Shown: piece after piece, positions 1,314 to 9,402 of the stretch | Position numbering within the stretch: the stretch's first letter is position 1 | Layout: each line of letters begins with the position of its first letter | Assembly (NCBI GenBank): GCA_016933295.1 | Contig: JAFGBG010000118.1 | Location: 1 to 39,822 of the forward strand | Direction: 5' to 3' | DNA: 39,822 nucleotides | DNA from: Sedimentisphaerales bacterium | GTDB lineage: Bacteria; Planctomycetota; Phycisphaerae; Sedimentisphaerales; Anaerobacaceae | Translations under genes and position numbers: made by a program | Notes under the pieces: model-generated | What the model was told of the DNA's origin: nothing | What the model saw: only the letters and a program-made list of their open reading frames with translations | The model's database searches: none

Positions 1314-1643
1314 ATGTTAAATAAAGATAAACGATTGTTATTCGAAAAACAGGCGGAAATCGCCAGGGCGATGGCCCATCCCTTGCGTATTGCGATTATT
1401 CATTTTCTTAAAGACGGCGAGCAGTGTGTCTGTGATATCGCCGAAAATGTCGGCTCTGAGCGGTCGAACGTATCGCGGCATCTTTCTGTTATGACCGGCG
1501 CCGGCCTGCTGGAATATCGCAAGGACGGGCTTAAGGTTATTTATAAGCTAAAGTGTATCTGCATCGTGGATTTTTTCTCTTGCGTGACCGACGTTTTGAA
1601 GCGGCAGGCCAAAGACAGTGAAAAACTGCTGAAGGCCCTGTAA
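1314..1643 (+). CDS. arsR: ArsR/SmtB-family metalloregulator
   Basis: A 109-residue winged-helix repressor, the usual size for the family. The sensor motif CVCDIAE at the start of the DNA-binding helix region holds Cys38 and Cys40, matching the As(III) site ELCVCDL of classical ArsR. The recognition segment SERSNVSRHLSVM follows. A second set of cysteines near the C-terminus (Cys81, Cys83, Cys90) could form or extend the metal site, as in ArsR variants that use C-terminal thiols. The ATG is preceded by GGAGG at 1305-1309 and by a perfect operator-like dyad. It opens the arsenic operon and probably represses it until arsenite or methylarsenite binds. Confidence 0.93.
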   Translation: MLNKDKRLLFEKQAEIARAMAHPLRIAIIHFLKDGEQCVCDIAENVGSERSNVSRHLSVMTGAGLLEYRKDGLKVIYKLKCICIVDFFSCVTDVLKRQAKDSEKLLKAL

Positions 1644-1647
1644 GTTG

Positions 1648-1741
1648 AGTGTAAAAGTTAAAAATCAAAAATAAAAATTGTGGAATTCGCCGGAGGCGGA
1701 TGACTTCCTTAATTTTGCATTTTTCACTTTAATTTTTAATT
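1648..1741. repeat. AT-rich imperfect inverted repeat between arsR and the permease gene
   Basis: The arsR-permease gap is filled by a left arm of AAAGTTAAAAATCAAAAATA type, a GC-rich centre (GGAATTCGCCGGAGGCGGAT) and a right arm rich in TTTTTCACTTTAATTTTTAA, which is an imperfect reverse complement of the left arm. This is the build of small palindromic intergenic elements. The permease ATG follows directly with no Shine-Dalgarno sequence, so the element sits in the operon leader for that gene. Confidence 0.55.
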
Positions 1742-1750
1742 TGTTTTGTT

Positions 1751-3079
1751 ATGAACTGGAAAAAGTTAGCAATTATTACGGCGGTATTTATCGGATGTTT
1801 TTATCTGCCGGTGGGGATTGCCCGCTTCGATAATGCGATTACCGAGTCGCTGCATTTGGTTAAATGGTATGCCCGCGAGCATGTTTTATTGTGCTTAGTT
1901 CCGGCGTTTTTTATCGCCGGGGCGATTTCTGTTTTTGTCAGCCAGGCTTCGGTAATGAAATATCTCGGCGCCAAGGCCAACAAGATTCTTGCATACGGCG
2001 TAGCTTCGATATCCGGCAGTATTCTTGCGGTTTGTTCCTGCACGGTTCTGCCGCTGTTTGCCGGTATATATAGGATGGGGGCCGGCCTGGGGCCTGCGAC
2101 GACCTTTCTTTATGCGGGGCCTGCCGTCAACGTGCTTGCGATAATCCTGACCGCCCGTATCCTCGGGCTGGAAATAGGTATCGCTCGTGCGGTCGGGGCG
2201 ATTGTTTTCAGCGTTGTGATCGGGCTTTTGATGCACCTGATTTATCGCAAAGAGGAGATTGAGAAGAACAATATGCAAATGGCCATGCCTGAGATGCAGG
2301 TAAGCAGGCCGTTGTGGAAAAACGCCTTATATTTCGCTTCGATGGTCGGCATTCTCGTATTTGCCAACTGGGCGCGCAGCGGTGACATTCGCGCTGTGTT
2401 TTTATGCTGCCCGGACAGTTTGACCCCTTACAGGGTCGAGGGGACACTTGTTAGCCGCACTGAAGATACGGTAACGATTTTAGATACTTCCGGCAAGACC
2501 AACGAAATACCCGCCGAGCTTCTTCAGGAAATCACCGACCTCAAGAAAAACAGCCTTTACGAGCTGATCTACAAAATTCGCTGGATTCTGGTTCTTGTGC
2601 TTTTAGCCGGTTTTGGTGTGATGGTATTTTCGTGGTTTAATCGCGGCGAAATTTCGCAATGGCTTGGCGCGACGTGGGATTTTGCCTGGCAGATACTGCC
2701 GCTGTTGCTTGCCGGAGTTTTGCTTGCCGGATTTTTACTCGGCCGACCCGATCCCGGGCATCAGGGAGTGATTCCCGCCGAGTGGGTCAATCGTGCGGTC
2801 GGCGGCAATTCCATCTGGTCGAATCTTTTTGCCGCTGTTGCCGGGGCGTTTATGTACTTTGCGACTTTGACGGAGGTTCCCATCTTGCAGGGGCTGATGG
2901 GCGCAGGGATGGGAAAGGGACCTGCGCTGGCGCTGCTTCTTGCCGGGCCTGCGTTGTCTTTGCCGAATATGCTTGTGATTCGCTCGGTGATGGGGACGCA
3001 GAAGACCGTTGTTTTTGTGACGCTTGTTATTGTTATGGCGACGATATCTGGGATGATTTTCGGCGCTTTTTGGGGATAA
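1751..3079 (+). CDS. arsP: ArsP/YraQ-family permease (putative organoarsenical efflux)
   Basis: A 442-residue polytopic membrane protein of the ArsP_1 (DUF318) permease family. The signature run SGSILAVCSCTVLPLFAGIY, followed by a GLGPATTFLYAGPAVN segment, repeats in related form in the second half (GKGPALALLLAGPALSLPN), giving the two-fold internal repeat of the family. Cys residues in CSCT sit within a membrane helix. ArsP members export trivalent methylated and aromatic arsenicals, which fits the ArsM methyltransferase two genes downstream. A polar segment of ~60 residues (about 215-275) between the two halves is likely cytosolic or periplasmic. The ATG at 1751 lacks a clear ribosome binding site. 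The precise substrate is inferred from context. Confidence 0.85.
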   Translation: MNWKKLAIITAVFIGCFYLPVGIARFDNAITESLHLVKWYAREHVLLCLVPAFFIAGAISVFVSQASVMKYLGAKANKILAYGVASISGSILAVCSCTVLPLFAGIYRMGAGLGPATTFLYAGPAVNVLAIILTARILGLEIGIARAVGAIVFSVVIGLLMHLIYRKEEIEKNNMQMAMPEMQVSRPLWKNALYFASMVGILVFANWARSGDIRAVFLCCPDSLTPYRVEGTLVSRTEDTVTILDTSGKTNEIPAELLQEITDLKKNSLYELIYKIRWILVLVLLAGFGVMVFSWFNRGEISQWLGATWDFAWQILPLLLAGVLLAGFLLGRPDPGHQGVIPAEWVNRAVGGNSIWSNLFAAVAGAFMYFATLTEVPILQGLMGAGMGKGPALALLLAGPALSLPNMLVIRSVMGTQKTVVFVTLVIVMATISGMIFGAFWG

Positions 3080-3093
3080 GGAAGGATAAAAAT

Positions 3094-3297
3094 ATGCTTG
3101 ATGAAAAAATACGGGAATTGATTGCGATAGGGGCATCCGTATCGGCGAATTGTCATTCCTGTGTGAAATATCATACTGCACGGGCACGGGAGATGAAAAT
3201 TGACGAGGACGAAATCCGGCAGGCGATTGATGTGGGAAAAATGGTAAGAAAGGGTGCTGCCGGCCAGATGGATAAGTTGATTGAAGAATTATCATAA
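3094..3297 (+). CDS. Small AhpD-like carboxymuconolactone decarboxylase family protein
   Basis: A 67-residue protein starting at ATG 3094 with GGAAGG 11 bases upstream; the longer ORF of the track starts inside the permease gene and its first part is a shadow. The text ELIAIGASVSANCHSCVKYH contains the CxxC (CHSC) plus His of the AhpD/CMD fold, and the rest (DEIRQAIDVGKMVRKGAAGQ) matches the small single-motif CMD proteins. Such proteins act as thiol-disulfide or peroxide-linked redox factors and are often met in arsenic gene clusters. Here it lies 14 bases after the permease and 21 before arsM. A thiol-redox role is family knowledge; the partner is unknown. Confidence 0.85.
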   Translation: MLDEKIRELIAIGASVSANCHSCVKYHTARAREMKIDEDEIRQAIDVGKMVRKGAAGQMDKLIEELS

Positions 3298-3318
3298 TAA
3301 ATTTTAAGGTATCTTATA

Positions 3319-4134
3319 ATGTCCGAATCTAACGAGAAAATCAGAGAGAAGGTTCGTCAGGGATATACGCAGATCGCGCAAGGCGGCACGGGCTGCTGCT
3401 GTGGCTCTTCAACGCCGGACAAACTCGCCGAGGGAATTGGTTATACCAGCGGGGAGCTGGATGTTTTGCCGGACGGGGCTAATATGGGGCTTTCCTGCGG
3501 CAATCCGACGGCCATCGCAAATCTTCGGCCGGGCCAGATTGTTTTGGATTTAGGCAGCGGTGGCGGTTTCGATTGTTTTATTGCCGCTAAAAAAGTCGGC
3601 CCGAACGGTCGTGCTATCGGTGTGGATATGACCGCCGAGATGGTTGGCAAGGCAAGGGCGGGCATCTCGAAATTCACGGAAAAAACGGGGCTGTCCAACG
3701 TCGAGTTTCGTCTCGGTGAAATTGAGCATCTTCCTGCGGCCGATGCGAGTGTCGATGTGGTGATTTCGAATTGCGTGATTAATCTTTCGCCGGACAAGCA
3801 GCAGGTCTGGAACGAGATTGCCCGGGTATTAAAACCGGGCGGTAAGGTGTGCATTTCGGATCTTGCTCTGAAAAAAGTCTTGCCGGAGAATGTCTTAAAA
3901 TCCGCAACGGCACTTGTCGGTTGTATTGCTGGGGCGGTTCTAATAGATACGACCGTGGAGATGGTAAAACAGGCGGGCTTGAGCGGCATTAAGATCGAAG
4001 AGAAATCAAATGCTATCGATTTGATGGTTGATAGTAACGATCCGCTGTATAAAGAAGTATTGGAATCTCTGCCGCAGGGGACACGACCAAGTGACTATGT
4101 CGTGAGTATTAATATAACGGTATATAAGAAATAA
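3319..4134 (+). CDS. arsM: Arsenite S-adenosylmethionine methyltransferase
   Basis: A 271-residue class I SAM-dependent methyltransferase. The SAM motif VLDLGSGGGFD begins near residue 75. The three cysteines that hold As(III) in ArsM enzymes are present: Cys60 in GLSCGNP, Cys152 in SNCVINL and Cys202 in LVGCIAG. An additional N-terminal GCCCGS cluster (Cys26-28) is also present, as in many bacterial ArsM. The enzyme converts arsenite to methylated forms using thiols as reductant. The following post-motif LKPGGKVCISDLAL is typical. It lies between the CMD gene and the ACR3 pump, so its products can be exported by ArsP and unreacted arsenite by ACR3. Confidence 0.95.
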   Translation: MSESNEKIREKVRQGYTQIAQGGTGCCCGSSTPDKLAEGIGYTSGELDVLPDGANMGLSCGNPTAIANLRPGQIVLDLGSGGGFDCFIAAKKVGPNGRAIGVDMTAEMVGKARAGISKFTEKTGLSNVEFRLGEIEHLPAADASVDVVISNCVINLSPDKQQVWNEIARVLKPGGKVCISDLALKKVLPENVLKSATALVGCIAGAVLIDTTVEMVKQAGLSGIKIEEKSNAIDLMVDSNDPLYKEVLESLPQGTRPSDYVVSINITVYKK

Positions 4135-4150
4135 ATTGAATTAGTAATGT

Positions 4151-5410
4151 ATGGAAATTAACGAATCCCACAAGTCAGGCAAAGGGCTTAATATTTTCGA
4201 AAAATATCTGACGGTCTGGGTGGCACTTTGTATTGCCGGCGGAATCGTCCTCGGGAAACTGGTTCCCGGCTTTGCTCGAACACTGGATGGAATTGCTGTT
4301 AATGTCAACGGCGCGCCGGTCGTCTCGATACCCATTGCGGTCTGTTTGTTCTTCATGATGTATCCCATCATGGTAAAAATCGACTTCGCCGAGGTGCTTA
4401 AAGCGGGGAAAAGCATCAAGCCTGTGGGTTTAACTTTGTTTGTGAACTGGGCCGTCAAGCCGTTTACGATGTATGCTATTTCGCTGCTGTTTCTTGGCAC
4501 TTTGTTCTATGGTTTGATAGGGCCAGAAGAGGTTGATTATGTCAAGATGCCGCTCGGGCAAAAACTCGTCGAGGGCGATAAATACGGCGTAGGCAGGGTT
4601 GTATGGTACGATCCCGCCAAGCGGATGGAAGCTCCGAGCGAAGATGCCGGAGCCGTGCTGAGGCTGAAGGTCCCGCTGTGGAAGAGTTATCTGGCTGGGT
4701 GCATCCTGCTGGGTATTGCTCCATGTACGGCGATGGTTCTGGTCTGGGGGTATCTGGCAAAAGGGAACGACGGGCACACACTTGTTATGGTGGCCGTAAA
4801 TTCGCTGACAATGTTGGTGCTATACGGTCCTTTGGGAGGATTTCTGCTCAGAGTCGGCAGGCTGCCGGTGCCCTGGCAGGCGCTGGTGCTGTCTATCGCC
4901 ATTTACGTTGCTCTGCCGCTTGTGGCCGGATATTTTTCCAGGAAGTGGATTATTTCCGTTAAGGGCGAGCGGTGGTTCCGGGAAAAATTCCTGCATTTCC
5001 TGACTCCGGTTACTATTATTGCCCTACTTATCACTCTGGTACTTTTGTTTTCGTTCAAGGGTGAGGTTATTCTGTCCAATCCACTGACTATTCTCTGGAT
5101 AGCGATACCGCTGTTCATTCAGACGAACGTGATTTTCTGGCTCGCTTACGGAGCGGCAAAAATTTTTAAACTGGAATATCGCGATGCGGCTCCTTCTGCT
5201 ATGATAGGAGCGTCCAATCATTTTGAAGTTGCCATCGCCACGGCGACAATGCTGTTCGGTTTATCTTCCGGCGCGGCCCTGGCGACCGTAGTCGGCGTGC
5301 TTATCGAGGTACCGGTGATGCTGATGCTTGTGCGGATATGTTTGAAGACGCGGAATTGGTTTCGAACCGAACCTGTAAAAGTAGAATCGATTGTGAAGGA
5401 GGTATCATGA
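4151..5410 (+). CDS. acr3: ACR3-family arsenite efflux transporter
   Basis: A 419-residue membrane carrier of the BART superfamily. The key helix with the essential cysteine reads [18 protein letters not shown], placing the Cys at residue 192. The late signature [20 protein letters not shown] is also present. It is longer than the usual ~350 residues because of a ~50-residue polar insert (about 125-175, starting [10 protein letters not shown]) before the cysteine helix, and an extra segment near residue 40-60. Such long ACR3 forms occur in several bacterial groups. The start at 4151 follows a non-coding ATG at 4147 in another frame. The stop overlaps the next ATG (ATGA), so the thioredoxin gene is translationally coupled. 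Confidence 0.95.
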
Positions 5411-5640
5411 AAAAGATACAGATTCTTGGAACGGGATGTCCGAAATGTAAAAAATTAGCCGAGAATGTCGAGACAGCGGCAAAAGATTTGGGCGGCGAAT
5501 TCGATATTGAGAAAGTCACCGAGATAAACGAGATTATGAAGTTCGGCGTGATGATGACTCCGGCCCTGGCGATTGACGGCCAGGTCAAAGTCGTCGGTAA
5601 AGTGCCGTCGCCGGATGAAATTAAGTCGATGCTGTCATAA
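5407..5640 (+). CDS. Small thioredoxin-like redox-active disulfide protein (CPKC)
   Basis: A 77-residue minimal thioredoxin fold starting at ATG 5407, overlapping the acr3 stop by four bases and preceded by GGAGGT in the acr3 end. The active site is [10 protein letters not shown] at residues 8-17, and the cis-proline region reads [10 protein letters not shown]. This matches the redox-active disulfide protein 2 (MTH895-type) family, often encoded in ars operons with permeases and CMD proteins. It probably serves as a dithiol donor or arsenic-thiol handler in the cytosol. The ORF in the track starts 23 codons earlier inside acr3; that extension is shadow. Confidence 0.9.
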
Positions 5641-5657
5641 TATTGGAGAAAATAACT

Positions 5658-5888
5658 TTGTGTCTGGCAGACTGGAAAAAAGCTTCAGATAAAACAATCG
5701 TATGCTATTGCATGAAAGTTAATAAGCAAGGCATTGTCTCTGCTATTCAGGCCGGCGCCGATAGTATAAAACAAATCCGGCAAATAACCGGAGCATGTAC
5801 TGGAAATCAATGCAAGGAATTAAATCCTGAAGGGCGTTGCTGTCATTTGGATATTGTCGAATTATTAAAGTTTTATGGAAACAATTAG
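5658..5888 (+). CDS. BFD-like [2Fe-2S]-binding protein
   Basis: A short protein with the cysteine pattern CYC...CTGNQC...CC of BFD-type [2Fe-2S] domains (as in the N-terminal part of CopZ-like proteins). The motif VCYCMKV opens the domain and ITGACTGNQCKELNP forms the second cluster ligand pair. No ATG is available. The track starts at TTG 5643, but TTG 5658 is better placed, with GGAG at 5645-5648 nine bases before it, giving 76 residues. It follows the thioredoxin by 17 bases in the same operon. It may pass electrons to the reductive steps of arsenic handling; this is inferred from context. Confidence 0.82.
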   Translation: MCLADWKKASDKTIVCYCMKVNKQGIVSAIQAGADSIKQIRQITGACTGNQCKELNPEGRCCHLDIVELLKFYGNN

Positions 5889-5924
5889 GACACGTCCTGT
5901 GATTGTTGCAGTTAAGGTTGAAAT

Positions 5925-6647
5925 GTGAGACTTATTACAATTAATATTTTGTGTAGTGTATTGCTTTTATCATGTAATGCACCTGTTAAAAGCGTAAAAC
6001 ATATAGATGATAATAGTTCGAGCTGGTATTACCCGGATTGGGCGGCCAATGCTCCATATGCTCCTACTTTTGAAATGCTTGATACCGAAAGCAGCCTCGG
6101 ACCTTATGCAAAACAGACTAAAACAATTACGCTAAAAGATTTGGTAAAGATGCACGGCCACTTATGTGACGGTTTAGTTACTGCTTCCTGTGCTTTGGAG
6201 CTTGGTCTGGATCGCTTATACCCTGATGGTGTTATTGATAGAACGGATACCTGCTGCATAAGTAATAATTCTCCGTGTTTTGGTGATACGGCCGCTTATC
6301 TTACGGGCGGCAGAATAAGATTTGGCACACAAAAAATTGATCCTAACTTGAGTAACGAATTAATAATTTACCGCATGTCGACAAAACAAGCGGTTAAAAT
6401 ATCTCTTAAGGAAGGAGTATTTCCTCCCGAGCTTGCAGAGCTTGAAAAGAAGATAAAATCAGGCGATTTTACTATCGAACAAATGCGACTATGTCAGAAA
6501 CTTGGTTGGGATTTTGCGGAGAGCCTTATTAATAAGTCGCTCGGTGAATCGTTTGTTGTCGAAGATATAGATGATTTAGTTTGGAAATCTGATAACTATA
6601 TTTATCAGGGAAAGAGAAGCGACATAATAAATAAAAATATCAAATAA
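5925..6647 (+). CDS. FmdE-domain lipoprotein
   Basis: A 240-residue protein starting at GTG 5925 (an ATG two bases earlier is out of frame and stops at once). The first 17 residues form a lipoprotein-like signal ending LLLSC, so it is probably membrane anchored outside the cytosol. The central part (about 75-150) is an FmdE domain: KMHGHLCDGLVTASC, then DTCCISNNSPCFGDTAAYL with several Cys and one His able to bind a metal, then GGRIRFG. FmdE was named from formylmethanofuran dehydrogenase subunit E, but stand-alone exported members have no settled role. The position between [2Fe-2S] and DGC proteins in an ars operon suggests metal or metalloid binding; this is inference. Confidence 0.8.
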   Translation: MRLITINILCSVLLLSCNAPVKSVKHIDDNSSSWYYPDWAANAPYAPTFEMLDTESSLGPYAKQTKTITLKDLVKMHGHLCDGLVTASCALELGLDRLYPDGVIDRTDTCCISNNSPCFGDTAAYLTGGRIRFGTQKIDPNLSNELIIYRMSTKQAVKISLKEGVFPPELAELEKKIKSGDFTIEQMRLCQKLGWDFAESLINKSLGESFVVEDIDDLVWKSDNYIYQGKRSDIINKNIK

Positions 6648-6673
6648 GGATTATTAAAGAAAGGTAAAGCATA

Positions 6674-7042
6674 ATGAGTAACGAAAATATATGTTCGGGC
6701 GGACCAAAGCTGATTTTCGCATGTTCAGGTGCGGCCGACGTGGGGGAAATTTCCGACCGTGCGGCGAGAAAGTTAAGCAAAGACGGCGTTGGAGCGATGT
6801 TTTGTCTTGCCGGTATCGGCGGAGAAGTCGAGCCGATTCTGAAAAAAACTCACTCGGCCTCGAAAATTCTGGCGATTGACGGCTGTTCGCTGAATTGTGT
6901 GAAAAGTACTCTCGAACAGGCCGGATTTGAGGAATTCGAATATATTCGTGTCACCGACCTTGGATTGGAAAAGGGCAAAAGTCCGGCCAGTGAAGAAAAT
7001 ATCGCAAAAGTAACCGCCGCGGCGGCAGAGAAGCTTTCTTAG
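6674..7042 (+). CDS. DGC-domain putative zinc-binding protein
   Basis: A 122-residue protein of the DGC family (PF08859). The naming motif IDGCSLNCVKSTLEQAGF is at residues ~73-90, with further cysteines at IFACSGA and MFCLAG near the N-terminus. Four conserved Cys are thought to bind metal. The ATG follows AAAGG at 6660-6664. The gene lies 26 bases downstream of the FmdE lipoprotein and belongs to the same operon. Its biochemical role is not established; metalloid or zinc binding is the family expectation. DGC proteins near thioredoxins and CcdA carriers recur in metal resistance clusters, from general knowledge. Confidence 0.85.
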   Translation: MSNENICSGGPKLIFACSGAADVGEISDRAARKLSKDGVGAMFCLAGIGGEVEPILKKTHSASKILAIDGCSLNCVKSTLEQAGFEEFEYIRVTDLGLEKGKSPASEENIAKVTAAAAEKLS

Positions 7043-7143
7043 AGTAGAAAGACTTGAAATTGTATCTTAAAATATGCCTGTGAACGTTTCCGAGTATCTT
7101 TGCAGGTCGAATATGAAATTATAGAAAGGCAGGTGGCTTGACT

Positions 7144-7680
7144 ATGAACCAAACGTTGAAAGTTGTCATTGTTGTCGTTCTTATTATTTCGATAATTGCG
7201 GTAATCAATATTAAGCGCAATAAATCTGAGCAGGGGGCCGGAGCGAATGCCGAGACAACGGCTGTCGTGAATGAACCGGCTCAGCCGGAGCCGTCTGTAA
7301 GTGAGGATGTGCCGCAGCCGATCGAACCTGATTCGCTGGCGAATTCGGAAATAACGGCAAGTGCCGAAGAACCTGTGCAGCCGGAGCAGCTTGTAACGAA
7401 GAAACTGCCGAAACTGCTCGATCTCGGTTCCGATCAGTGCATCCCGTGTAAATTGATGGCACCGATTCTCGAAGAGCTGAAGACCGAATATACCGGCAAA
7501 TTCAAAGTGGAATTTATGGACGTTCGGATAGATCCGATGCTGGCTAAGGTTTATAACATTAAGCTTATTCCAACTCAGATTTTCTTTGATGCTTCCGGCG
7601 AGGAGCTGTTCCGGCACGAAGGATTTTACTCCAAAGAAGATATACTTTCAAAGTGGAAAGATCTTGGTGTGGAATTCTGA
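7144..7680 (+). CDS. Membrane-anchored thioredoxin-like protein (CIPC)
   Basis: A 178-residue protein. ATG 7144 is chosen over TTG 7138 because AGGTGG at 7131-7136 is correctly spaced. An N-terminal membrane helix (VVIVVVLIISIIAVI) is followed by a ~65-residue Pro/Glu/Gln-rich linker and a thioredoxin domain with active site DQCIPCKLMAP and cis-Pro loop LIPTQIFF. The thioredoxin domain ends HEGFYS...DLGVEF. The architecture places the domain in the periplasm on a flexible tether. It is a close paralog of the next gene in its thioredoxin part. It likely receives electrons from the CcdA-like protein two genes downstream. Confidence 0.88.
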   Translation: MNQTLKVVIVVVLIISIIAVINIKRNKSEQGAGANAETTAVVNEPAQPEPSVSEDVPQPIEPDSLANSEITASAEEPVQPEQLVTKKLPKLLDLGSDQCIPCKLMAPILEELKTEYTGKFKVEFMDVRIDPMLAKVYNIKLIPTQIFFDASGEELFRHEGFYSKEDILSKWKDLGVEF

Positions 7681-7743
7681 GTGCCTGTAAAATCGGCGAA
7701 GGCGTACCCAAATAATATTATGAGTAGCTATAGGAGAATTAAG

Positions 7744-8700
7744 ATGAGACTTTCCGGTATTTTGTTAATTGTATGTTTCTTGACGCTGATATTAATAGTT
7801 CCTCTGCAGGGAGCCGGGCCGAATAGCACGTTAAAGCCGTCATCGACGCCGAAATCTGTGATAGTAAAGGACAAGTATCCAAACATAGAAATGGGATTTT
7901 TGAATGGCGCCGTTGTTTCTGATCAGCCGGAGGGTGTATTACTCAAAGCCGGCAGTCTGGTGGTTTATAACAAGGATCTGGACCGAACAATAGCCGAGGC
8001 CGATGAGAAAGTCAGGTCCGGGCTAAAAAAATATGCTTCATTGGTTTTGGAACAAATCTCCATTCCAAAATTGTTGGTTATAGAAATCAAACAAGAAGCG
8101 GCAAAAAACGGCCGGGAGATAACGGAAACGGACGACGATAAAATTATCCAGGATTACCTCCCTACATTGATCGAAAAAGTGAAAGTCAGCGATGCGGAAA
8201 TACTCGAATTCTATAATACAAATAAAGATTCGTTCGGCGATGCTACTCTGGCACAAATCAAACCTCAAATTCAACAATACCTTACCCAGCAGAACCTGCA
8301 GAAACTTATTAATGAAAGAATTCGTACCATTGGCGATAGAATGAAGATTGAAATTTCCGCTTCATGGCTAAAGGCCCAGGCGGCTTTGGAACGAGACAAT
8401 CCCGTTAATAAAGCGCGTGACAACGGAAAACCTACTATGGTTGATTTCGGATCCAAAGGTTGCGTGCCGTGTGACATGTTGGCTCCGATACTGGAGACGC
8501 TGCAGGAAAAATATAATGGCAAAGCCAATATCGTCGTCGTGTTGGTTGGTGAAGAGCCTGTACTTGCGTCACGTTACGGCGTGGAGGTGATTCCTCTCCA
8601 GATATTCTATGATAAAACCGGCAAAGAGGTATTCCGCCATGAAGGTTTTTACTCACAGAAAGAAATCGAGCAGAAGTTGTCGGAAGTTGGAGTCAATTAG
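7744..8700 (+). CDS. Exported SurA-like/thioredoxin fusion protein
   Basis: A 318-residue protein. ATG 7744, preceded by AGGAG at 7732-7736, is preferred over the GTG at 7681 of the track. Residues 1-25 are a signal peptide (ILLIVCFLTLILIVPLQGAG). Residues ~75-220 are helical with an EITETDDDKIIQDYLP / VSDAEILEFYNTNKDSFG pattern that resembles the N-terminal chaperone region of SurA/PpiC-type proteins, but no PPIase domain is present. Residues ~225-318 are a thioredoxin domain with GCVPCDMLAP and cis-Pro VIPLQIFY. This last part duplicates the preceding gene. It may combine substrate holding with disulfide reduction in the periplasm; this is inference. Confidence 0.82.
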   Translation: MRLSGILLIVCFLTLILIVPLQGAGPNSTLKPSSTPKSVIVKDKYPNIEMGFLNGAVVSDQPEGVLLKAGSLVVYNKDLDRTIAEADEKVRSGLKKYASLVLEQISIPKLLVIEIKQEAAKNGREITETDDDKIIQDYLPTLIEKVKVSDAEILEFYNTNKDSFGDATLAQIKPQIQQYLTQQNLQKLINERIRTIGDRMKIEISASWLKAQAALERDNPVNKARDNGKPTMVDFGSKGCVPCDMLAPILETLQEKYNGKANIVVVLVGEEPVLASRYGVEVIPLQIFYDKTGKEVFRHEGFYSQKEIEQKLSEVGVN

Positions 8701-8703
8701 CAG

Positions 8704-9402
8704 GTGGAAAAGCTTTTCACAAGCCTAATTCACGCCGTTGAAGGTACACCCGCAATCGCCGTAGCGGCGGCTTTTGTCTGGGGGATTCTCAGCGTTTTGC
8801 TGAGTCCCTGCCACCTGGCGAGTATTCCTTTAATAGTCGGTTTTATCAACGGGCAGGGACAGATTACAACGCGGCGTGCTTTTTGTATATCCGGTCTGTT
8901 TTCCGTTGGTATCTTAATCACAATCGCCGGCATCGGAGCTATCACTGCGGCGGCGGGGCGAATGTTGGGTGATGTCGGGCCGTACGGCAATTATTTTGTA
9001 GCGGCGGTTTTTTTCGTGGTCGGTCTTATTCTTCTTGATGTAATACCTATGCCGTTCAGCGGCCCCGGTCAGGTCGGAATAAAACGCAGGGGTATGCTTG
9101 CCGCTTTTATTCTCGGATTGGTTTTTGGTGTAGCTATCGGCCCATGTACGTTTGCTTTTATGGCTCCCGTGCTGGGGATTACGTTCAAGGTAGCCTCATC
9201 GAATATCGCCTACGGCGTAGTTTTGCTGCTGGTATATGGTTTGGGCCATTGTTCGGTGATTGTTTTTGCGGGAACTTTCGCCGAATTGGTGCAGCGCTAT
9301 ATGAACTGGAACGAAAAATCCAAAGGGGCGGTTTTTCTTAAAAGAATCTGCGGAATTCTTGTTTTAATAGGCGGGCTATACCTGCTTTTTATCGCCGTTT
9401 AA
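8704..9402 (+). CDS. ccdA: CcdA/DsbD-type transmembrane electron carrier
   Basis: A 232-residue, six-helix membrane protein of the cytochrome c biogenesis CcdA family. It starts at GTG 8704, three bases after the previous stop. The two membrane cysteines that shuttle electrons are visible in related contexts: Cys36 in LLSPCHLASIPLI and Cys148 in AIGPCTFAFMAP, each opening one half of the internal repeat. It would move reducing equivalents from cytosolic thioredoxin to the two envelope thioredoxins encoded just upstream. It is the last gene of the arsenic operon; no stem-loop terminator is evident after it. Confidence 0.92.
   Translation: MEKLFTSLIHAVEGTPAIAVAAAFVWGILSVLLSPCHLASIPLIVGFINGQGQITTRRAFCISGLFSVGILITIAGIGAITAAAGRMLGDVGPYGNYFVAAVFFVVGLILLDVIPMPFSGPGQVGIKRRGMLAAFILGLVFGVAIGPCTFAFMAPVLGITFKVASSNIAYGVVLLLVYGLGHCSVIVFAGTFAELVQRYMNWNEKSKGAVFLKRICGILVLIGGLYLLFIAV

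Follow-up and report, generated by a model that had tools for sequence, protein, structure and literature searches.

The window (the whole analyzed stretch of 39,822 nucleotides) carries twelve tightly spaced genes on the forward strand, from position 1314 to 9402, one of which encodes an FmdE-domain protein (Table 1). The sequence-only reading had placed this gene among arsenic and thiol-redox genes, and this was confirmed, the operon encoding ArsR, ArsP, ArsM, Acr3, thioredoxins, and CcdA. The CVCD pair of the ArsR protein is of the CxC[DE] type known from arsenite sensors. The ArsP permease is of the long kind (about 445 amino acids), its two halves being separated by a soluble insert, a form common in the family to which the window's genome belongs. 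Besides, a repeat of about 47 bases was observed 5' of arsR (881 to 927 and 1134 to 1177), and two other contigs of this genome, C120 and C187, carry more copies. The BFD open reading frame as listed begins with TTG at 5643, and TTG 5658 is a possible other start.

Table 1. Genes and features of the arsenic operon in the window
Feature	Position	Strand	Basis or remark
ArsR/SmtB repressor, CVCD (C38, C40), C-terminal C81-x-C83...C90	1314..1643	+	NCBIfam NF033788, 77.7 bits, cut-off 55
ArsP_1-family permease, long type, 442 aa	1751..3079	+	PF03773, E 2.3e-75
AhpD/CMD-domain small protein, 67 aa	3094..3297	+	PF02627, E 4.6e-13
ArsM arsenite methyltransferase	3319..4134	+	NF008823, 295.6 bits, cut-off 263
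Acr3 arsenite efflux transporter	4151..5410	+	TIGR00832, 378.2 bits, cut-off 282.8
Thioredoxin_3/MTH895-ArsE family protein (redox-active disulfide protein 2 type), CPKC	5407..5640	+	TIGR00412, 112.3 bits, cut-off 62
BFD-like [2Fe-2S] small protein, 5' half of inserted cassette	5643..5888	+	PF04324, 32.3 bits, cut-off 26; GC3 0.354
FmdE-domain lipoprotein (predicted)	5925..6647	+	GTG start, lipobox C17, metal-site residues H77, H79, C81, C118
Signal peptide (residues 1-16) ahead of lipobox Cys17 (predicted)	5925..5972	+	Sequence pattern
DGC-domain protein (putative zinc-binding)	6674..7042	+	PF08859, E 2.8e-30
Membrane-anchored thioredoxin, CIPC	7138..7680	+	PF00085, E 6.2e-12; N-terminus hydrophobic by inspection
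Exported protein, C-terminal thioredoxin domain, CVPC	7681..8700	+	PF00085, E 1e-11; hydrophobic segment at N-terminus
CcdA/DsbD transmembrane electron carrier (DsbD_TM)	8704..9402	+	PF02683, E 6.7e-12

The fmdE gene is complete and encodes 240 amino acids; since an in-frame stop (TGA) precedes its GTG by two codons, no earlier start is possible. The product matched the Pfam FmdE family (PF02663; E value, 1.3e-15; 58 bits against a cut-off of 22.9), and relatives with 57 to 67% identity, together with a predicted structure of mean pLDDT 94.9, indicate that the reading frame is not a chance one. The N terminus, VRLITINILCSVLLLSC, is a lipoprotein-type signal by pattern, composed of an n-region (VR), an h-region (LITINILCSVLLLS), and a lipobox (LLLS directly ahead of the lipobox cysteine, Cys-17), and it matches a PROSITE PS51257-style pattern. 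The lipoprotein-like signal proposed in the sequence-only reading was thus borne out, and the pattern-based lipobox is common to 11 of the 15 members of the subclade that includes the window protein (subclade I, below). The protein is probably a lipoprotein of the cell envelope, on the outer side of the cell membrane. It is of a one-domain type, in which the C-terminal treble-clef zinc finger is absent (no cysteine beyond residue 190); the FmdE family includes one-domain members (PMC2954224).

The AlphaFold2 model of the protein (pTM, 0.90) was compared with the PDB by Foldseek, and its only significant matches were the three solved FmdE structures, which accounted for the top four hits, with E values of 7e-6 to 1.2e-4 and TM scores to the target of 0.49 to 0.71. 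The modeled protein has the FmdE core fold, for which a thioredoxin-like topology has been described (PMC2954224). Searching the PDB with the single sequence brought up nothing beyond chance matches and one spurious match, to a designed repeat protein.

Ten residues (H77, H79, C81, C118, G78, G83, D105, R106, D121, and R130, in window numbering) were invariant in 59 aligned relatives. The window protein carries MHGHLC where the family motif is FHGHxC, and the distal cysteine is also present. A profile of the clade placed H77, H79, C81, and C118 on the metal ligands His-16, His-18, Cys-20, and Cys-61 of 2gvi, with an E value of 0.15 from sequence alone. Known FmdE sites hold zinc or nickel, and in 2gvi an unknown ligand lies 1.8 Å from Cys-61, next to the zinc (PMC2954224). 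By alignment, the conserved chemistry of the protein is the H-x-H-x-C...C metal site of the solved FmdE structures. The cysteine-rich motifs pointed out earlier are indeed present, namely, HGHLCDG (H77/H79/C81), DTCCIS (C110/C111), and CFGD (C118), but C81 and C118 are the only conserved cysteines. Residue 111 is cysteine in only 12% of group A, and residue 110 is glycine in both other planctomycete sequences of alignment A1. As C110 and C111 vary among relatives, a cysteine-rich arsenite site based on DTCC was dropped. Conservation of two cysteines and two histidines points to a standard FmdE site for zinc or nickel rather than an obvious three-thiol arsenite site, and the window protein may bind a metal or metalloid there.

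Two genomes of the window's genus (L142 and L143) carry the same operon type without fmdE, and in these trx3 is followed by the DGC gene about a dozen bases apart. In the window, exactly this junction of trx3 and the DGC gene is occupied by BFD and fmdE. Furthermore, the GC3 of fmdE is 0.320, as low as that of its BFD neighbor, whereas the remaining ten operon genes range from 0.44 to 0.60. Thus, the BFD-fmdE pair is a cassette recently inserted into an existing ars operon. In the nearest relative, a Phycisphaerae bacterium (L042), fmdE is placed elsewhere, with ArsP on one side and Trx3 on the other, so that this operon type has probably acquired the gene more than once. By inspection, a cytochrome b-like membrane protein is encoded between trx3 and the DGC gene at that locus (8950 to 9354). 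In the window's family (89 genomes), FmdE of this type was found only in the present genome, and ArsP_1 permeases were found in 81. BFD was dropped as a general companion of FmdE, since the two adjoin only in the window. At L051/L032 (7791 to 8850 of L032, minus strand, opposite to fmdE), we noted by inspection a frame apparently joining a BFD-like cysteine motif, a MerT-like membrane segment, and a heavy-metal-associated (HMA) domain. A frameshifted, decayed remnant of an arsenic-type fmdE gene was seen in another planctomycete (L039, 7332 to 7572). The G443 match (L036/L037) turned out to be a decayed remnant and was left out of the analysis.

We searched genome contigs with the five-sequence alignment A1, i.e., with FmdE sequence only and blind to gene context, and obtained 80 loci; plasmids gave two more relatives (Sulfuricella denitrificans pSCD and Alicyclobacillus sp. 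SO9 p1). Single-sequence scans of genome contigs and viral contigs gave nothing that was confirmed, and phage sequences searched with FmdE gave no match. A locus was counted as ars linked when at least one ars-specific gene (ArsP, Acr3/ArsB, ArsC, ArsM, ArsA, or ArsD) lay within 5 kb, neighbors outside the window being called by tblastn with reference proteins taken from the window and the plasmids, on contigs that, for metagenome-assembled genomes, are short. Linkage was found for 44 of 58 close FmdE loci, against a background of two FmdE control sets with similar available flank lengths: 1 of 25 in a sister clade (L097 to L121) and 1 of 20 among other planctomycete FmdE loci. The Fisher values (4e-10 and 2e-8, respectively) overstate independence, given the kinship of loci within subclades, a few of which are near-duplicates, such as L041/L081 and L067/L069. 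The co-occurrence with ars and redox genes in other genomes, for which the sequence-only reading had proposed a neighborhood survey, was thus found. All 44 linked loci fell within one clade of 55 (SH-aLRT, 99) in a maximum-likelihood tree from a quick, short search, in which some long branches meet and the deep order within the clade is unreliable. Judged by record titles, this clade spans over ten phyla, with members in Planctomycetota, Verrucomicrobia/Kiritimatiellae/Victivallaceae, Omnitrophota, Acidobacteria, Nitrospirae, Deltaproteobacteria and other Proteobacteria, Chloroflexi (Caldilineae), Bacillota, Thermoplasmata, Bacteroidetes, Thermodesulfobacteria, and Spirochaetes. Where ArsR is a neighbor, the arsenite-sensor motif CxC[DE] was present in 29 of 36 loci, including the window. 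The local gene orders differ (ArsP-FmdE-Trx3, Trx3-FmdE, BFD-FmdE-DGC, Trx3-FmdE-ArsP, Acr3-FmdE, ArsC-FmdE-Acr3, and DsrE-FmdE-ArsB), which implies that the pairing of FmdE with ars genes arose repeatedly. The arsenic linkage of the clade is strong, but linkage is not function.

Eleven of the 55 clade members, some on short contigs, lack an ars-specific gene within this distance. Two members of subclade II without ars neighbors lie near an RND/HlyD efflux pair and a cation-diffusion facilitator (L061, 3696 to 7987; L065, 5772 to 6698). On the Sulfuricella plasmid (L040, 5777 to 11825), it is not ars genes but an additional gene cluster for F-type ATP synthase that precedes the gene for the FmdE lipoprotein. 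We found no link between FmdE and arsenic resistance in the open-access literature, which does not imply proof of novelty. In an Acidiplasma study, an FmdE gene, perhaps of another clade, was reported as lowered on all sulfur substrates.

The clade appears to split by compartment, and signals and partners switch together according to sequence patterns, on which all export calls are based. Subclade I (15 members, including the window) has 11 lipoboxes and four other hydrophobic N termini, and all 15 loci are ars linked; in subclade II (14 members), there are 12 hydrophobic N termini, one lipobox, and one protein without a signal, with 9 of 14 ars linked. None of the 21 members of subclade III, from Bacillota and Thermoplasmata, has a signal, and 17 of these are ars linked, as are three of the five clade members outside the three subclades. 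Thus, export is predicted for the window protein from its lipobox signal, but it does not define the arsenic-linked clade. Near the exported forms (29 loci), we found Trx3 in 20, ArsP in 19, and CcdA in 12, and none of these near the 21 signal-less forms, whereas the latter had a DsrE-like protein in 20 loci and ArsA in 14, both absent near exported forms. The signal-less forms accompany ArsD/ArsA/ArsB, ArsD being encoded in 13 of 21 loci, as exemplified by the Alicyclobacillus plasmid (arsD-arsA-arsA-[DsrE-like]-fmdE-arsR-arsB-arsC-arsC-trxB). The DsrE-like gene ends about 47 bases 5' of fmdE. Its product scored 20.9 against Pfam DsrE, just below the cut-off, and hence is perhaps an undescribed family. 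It has about 117 amino acids (e.g., L041, 11608 to 11961), with one invariant cysteine (CxNQ-type site) and a conserved EFARDAFSRYA-type tail. The thioredoxin/CcdA set was also found without FmdE (L143 and L144).

We consider that the FmdE lipoprotein is probably an unrecognized part of arsenic detoxification. That its function lies in resistance to arsenic, or to arsenic and antimony, is very likely, and we hold with moderate confidence the full explanation, in which it has an accessory role in arsenic resistance and represents a distinct arsenic-linked clade in its exported form. For its chemistry, we tentatively suggest arsenic-sulfur or thiol processing at a metal-thiolate site with a thiol relay. 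The H77/H79/C81/C118 site would hold a zinc-like metal, with C118 as a reactive thiolate, and arsenicals expelled by ArsP/Acr3, or arsenic-sulfur species formed outside, would be bound there or converted by thiol/sulfur chemistry. The relay from CcdA to the exported thioredoxin, along with the Thioredoxin_3 protein, would keep the FmdE cysteines reduced; in Bacillota and Thermoplasmata, cytoplasmic FmdE would act with ArsD/ArsA/ArsB and the single-cysteine DsrE-like partner. We hypothesize such chemistry, over simple arsenite binding, because carriers of thiol or sulfur persistently accompany FmdE in both compartments and the metal would have a reactive cysteine beside it. More speculatively, and somewhat doubtfully, the clade might constitute a new enzyme family of FmdE-fold metal-thiolate proteins processing arsenic-sulfur species (thioarsenates or arsenic-thiol conjugates), one version working in the envelope on electrons relayed by CcdA-thioredoxin and the other in the cytoplasm together with a DsrE-like sulfur carrier dedicated to it. 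Against the accessory arsenic-resistance role stand the two conserved cysteines, which fit zinc or nickel better than an arsenite trithiolate, the 11 clade members without ars-specific neighbors, the dispensability of FmdE in the window's family, in which 81 of 89 genomes have ArsP_1 and one has FmdE, and the thioredoxin/CcdA sets of L143 and L144, where FmdE is absent.

FmdE may alternatively be an arsenite metallochaperone or sequestering protein, in which two conserved thiols and other ligands bind As(III) and, like ArsD, pass it to the pump or hold it afterward without any chemistry. The linkage of FmdE to pumps in both compartments would suit this, as would the general proximity of FmdE genes to metal transporters (PMC2954224). 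We nevertheless judge it unlikely, since C81 and C118 with two histidines are of a zinc/nickel type rather than a three-cysteine arsenite site, and a second chaperone would be redundant in the 13 signal-less loci that already encode ArsD.

Rather less likely is an alternative arsenate or thioarsenate reductase or desulfurase, with a circularly permuted thioredoxin-like fold, C118 as the catalytic thiol, and electrons from CcdA-thioredoxin in the envelope or sulfur exchange with DsrE in the cytoplasm. The described topology (PMC2954224) and the thiol/sulfur partners in each compartment are consistent with it, as are the scarcity of ArsC around the signal-less loci (3 of 21) and the report of no arsC in Sulfobacillus thermotolerans Kr1, the source of L085 (PMC7409299). 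On the other hand, C118 has no second conserved redox cysteine nearby with which it could make up a CxxC, 9 of 29 exported loci have ArsC in their vicinity, and arsC may lie elsewhere in the genomes.

A wider metal role for the clade is possible in view of the 11 members without ars-specific genes and the RND/CDF efflux genes near L061 and L065. In its strict form, in which FmdE is a general protein of zinc, nickel, copper, or mercury homeostasis that travels with metal-resistance islands and arsenic is not its substrate, this is improbable. Known FmdE sites bind zinc or nickel (PMC2954224), the BFD/MerT-like/HMA frame of L051/L032 is close to FmdE, and ArsP_1 permeases are not all arsenic specific; however, arsenic-only genes (Acr3/ArsB, ArsC, ArsM, ArsA, and ArsD) are common neighbors, most adjacent ArsR proteins carry the arsenite-sensor motif, and sister FmdE clades are without such linkage.

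The annotation in public records, a formylmethanofuran dehydrogenase subunit or C1 chaperone, is almost certainly wrong here: the family name alone speaks for it, and it was rejected on context, FmdE being exported and in a distinct clade, and neither the window operon nor the annotated plasmid loci containing fwd/fmd genes. Nor is FmdE mainly a domain of archaeal C1 metabolism, as had been supposed from sequence, given that 13 of 208 FmdE genes lie beside fmd genes and most lie beside metal-ion transporters (Axelrod et al. 2010; PMC2954224). An accessory role in arsenic resistance would correct the misleading label "formylmethanofuran dehydrogenase subunit E," and an arsenic-linked clade in over ten phyla offers a concrete, testable substrate class for FmdE. 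To our knowledge, structures have been solved since 2006, and no function has been assigned outside the fmd name.

Compared with known systems, the window protein shares the fold and the H-x-H-x-C...C metal site with the solved members of PF02663 (2gvi, Ta1109; 2glz, Dhaf_2992; 3d00, SYN_00638), as judged from the model and alignments, and it differs from these in its predicted signal peptide, a conserved N-terminal extension of about 55 residues, the ars context, the lack of a C-terminal zinc finger, and clade-specific residues (D53, L84, D108, N115, and Y125). The sister FmdE clade (Thiobacillus, Geobacter, and relatives) is likewise mostly exported and has the same four metal-site residues, but it is ars linked in a single locus and has A53, T84, and V108 where the arsenic-linked clade has D, L, and D. 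The metallochaperone ArsD is also a small accessory protein beside arsenite pumps, although it is cytoplasmic and of an unrelated family; the occurrence of arsD together with fmdE in 13 signal-less loci indicates that the two are not substitutes for each other. Finally, determinants of CcdA, thioredoxin, and redox-active disulfide protein 2 were noticed in ars operons, with their role left unsettled, by Castillo and Saier (2010), who thought trans-membrane electron flow unlikely, ArsC being cytoplasmic, and named no envelope client (PMC2963123). This triad is present in the window, and the exported FmdE adds a candidate envelope client for it.
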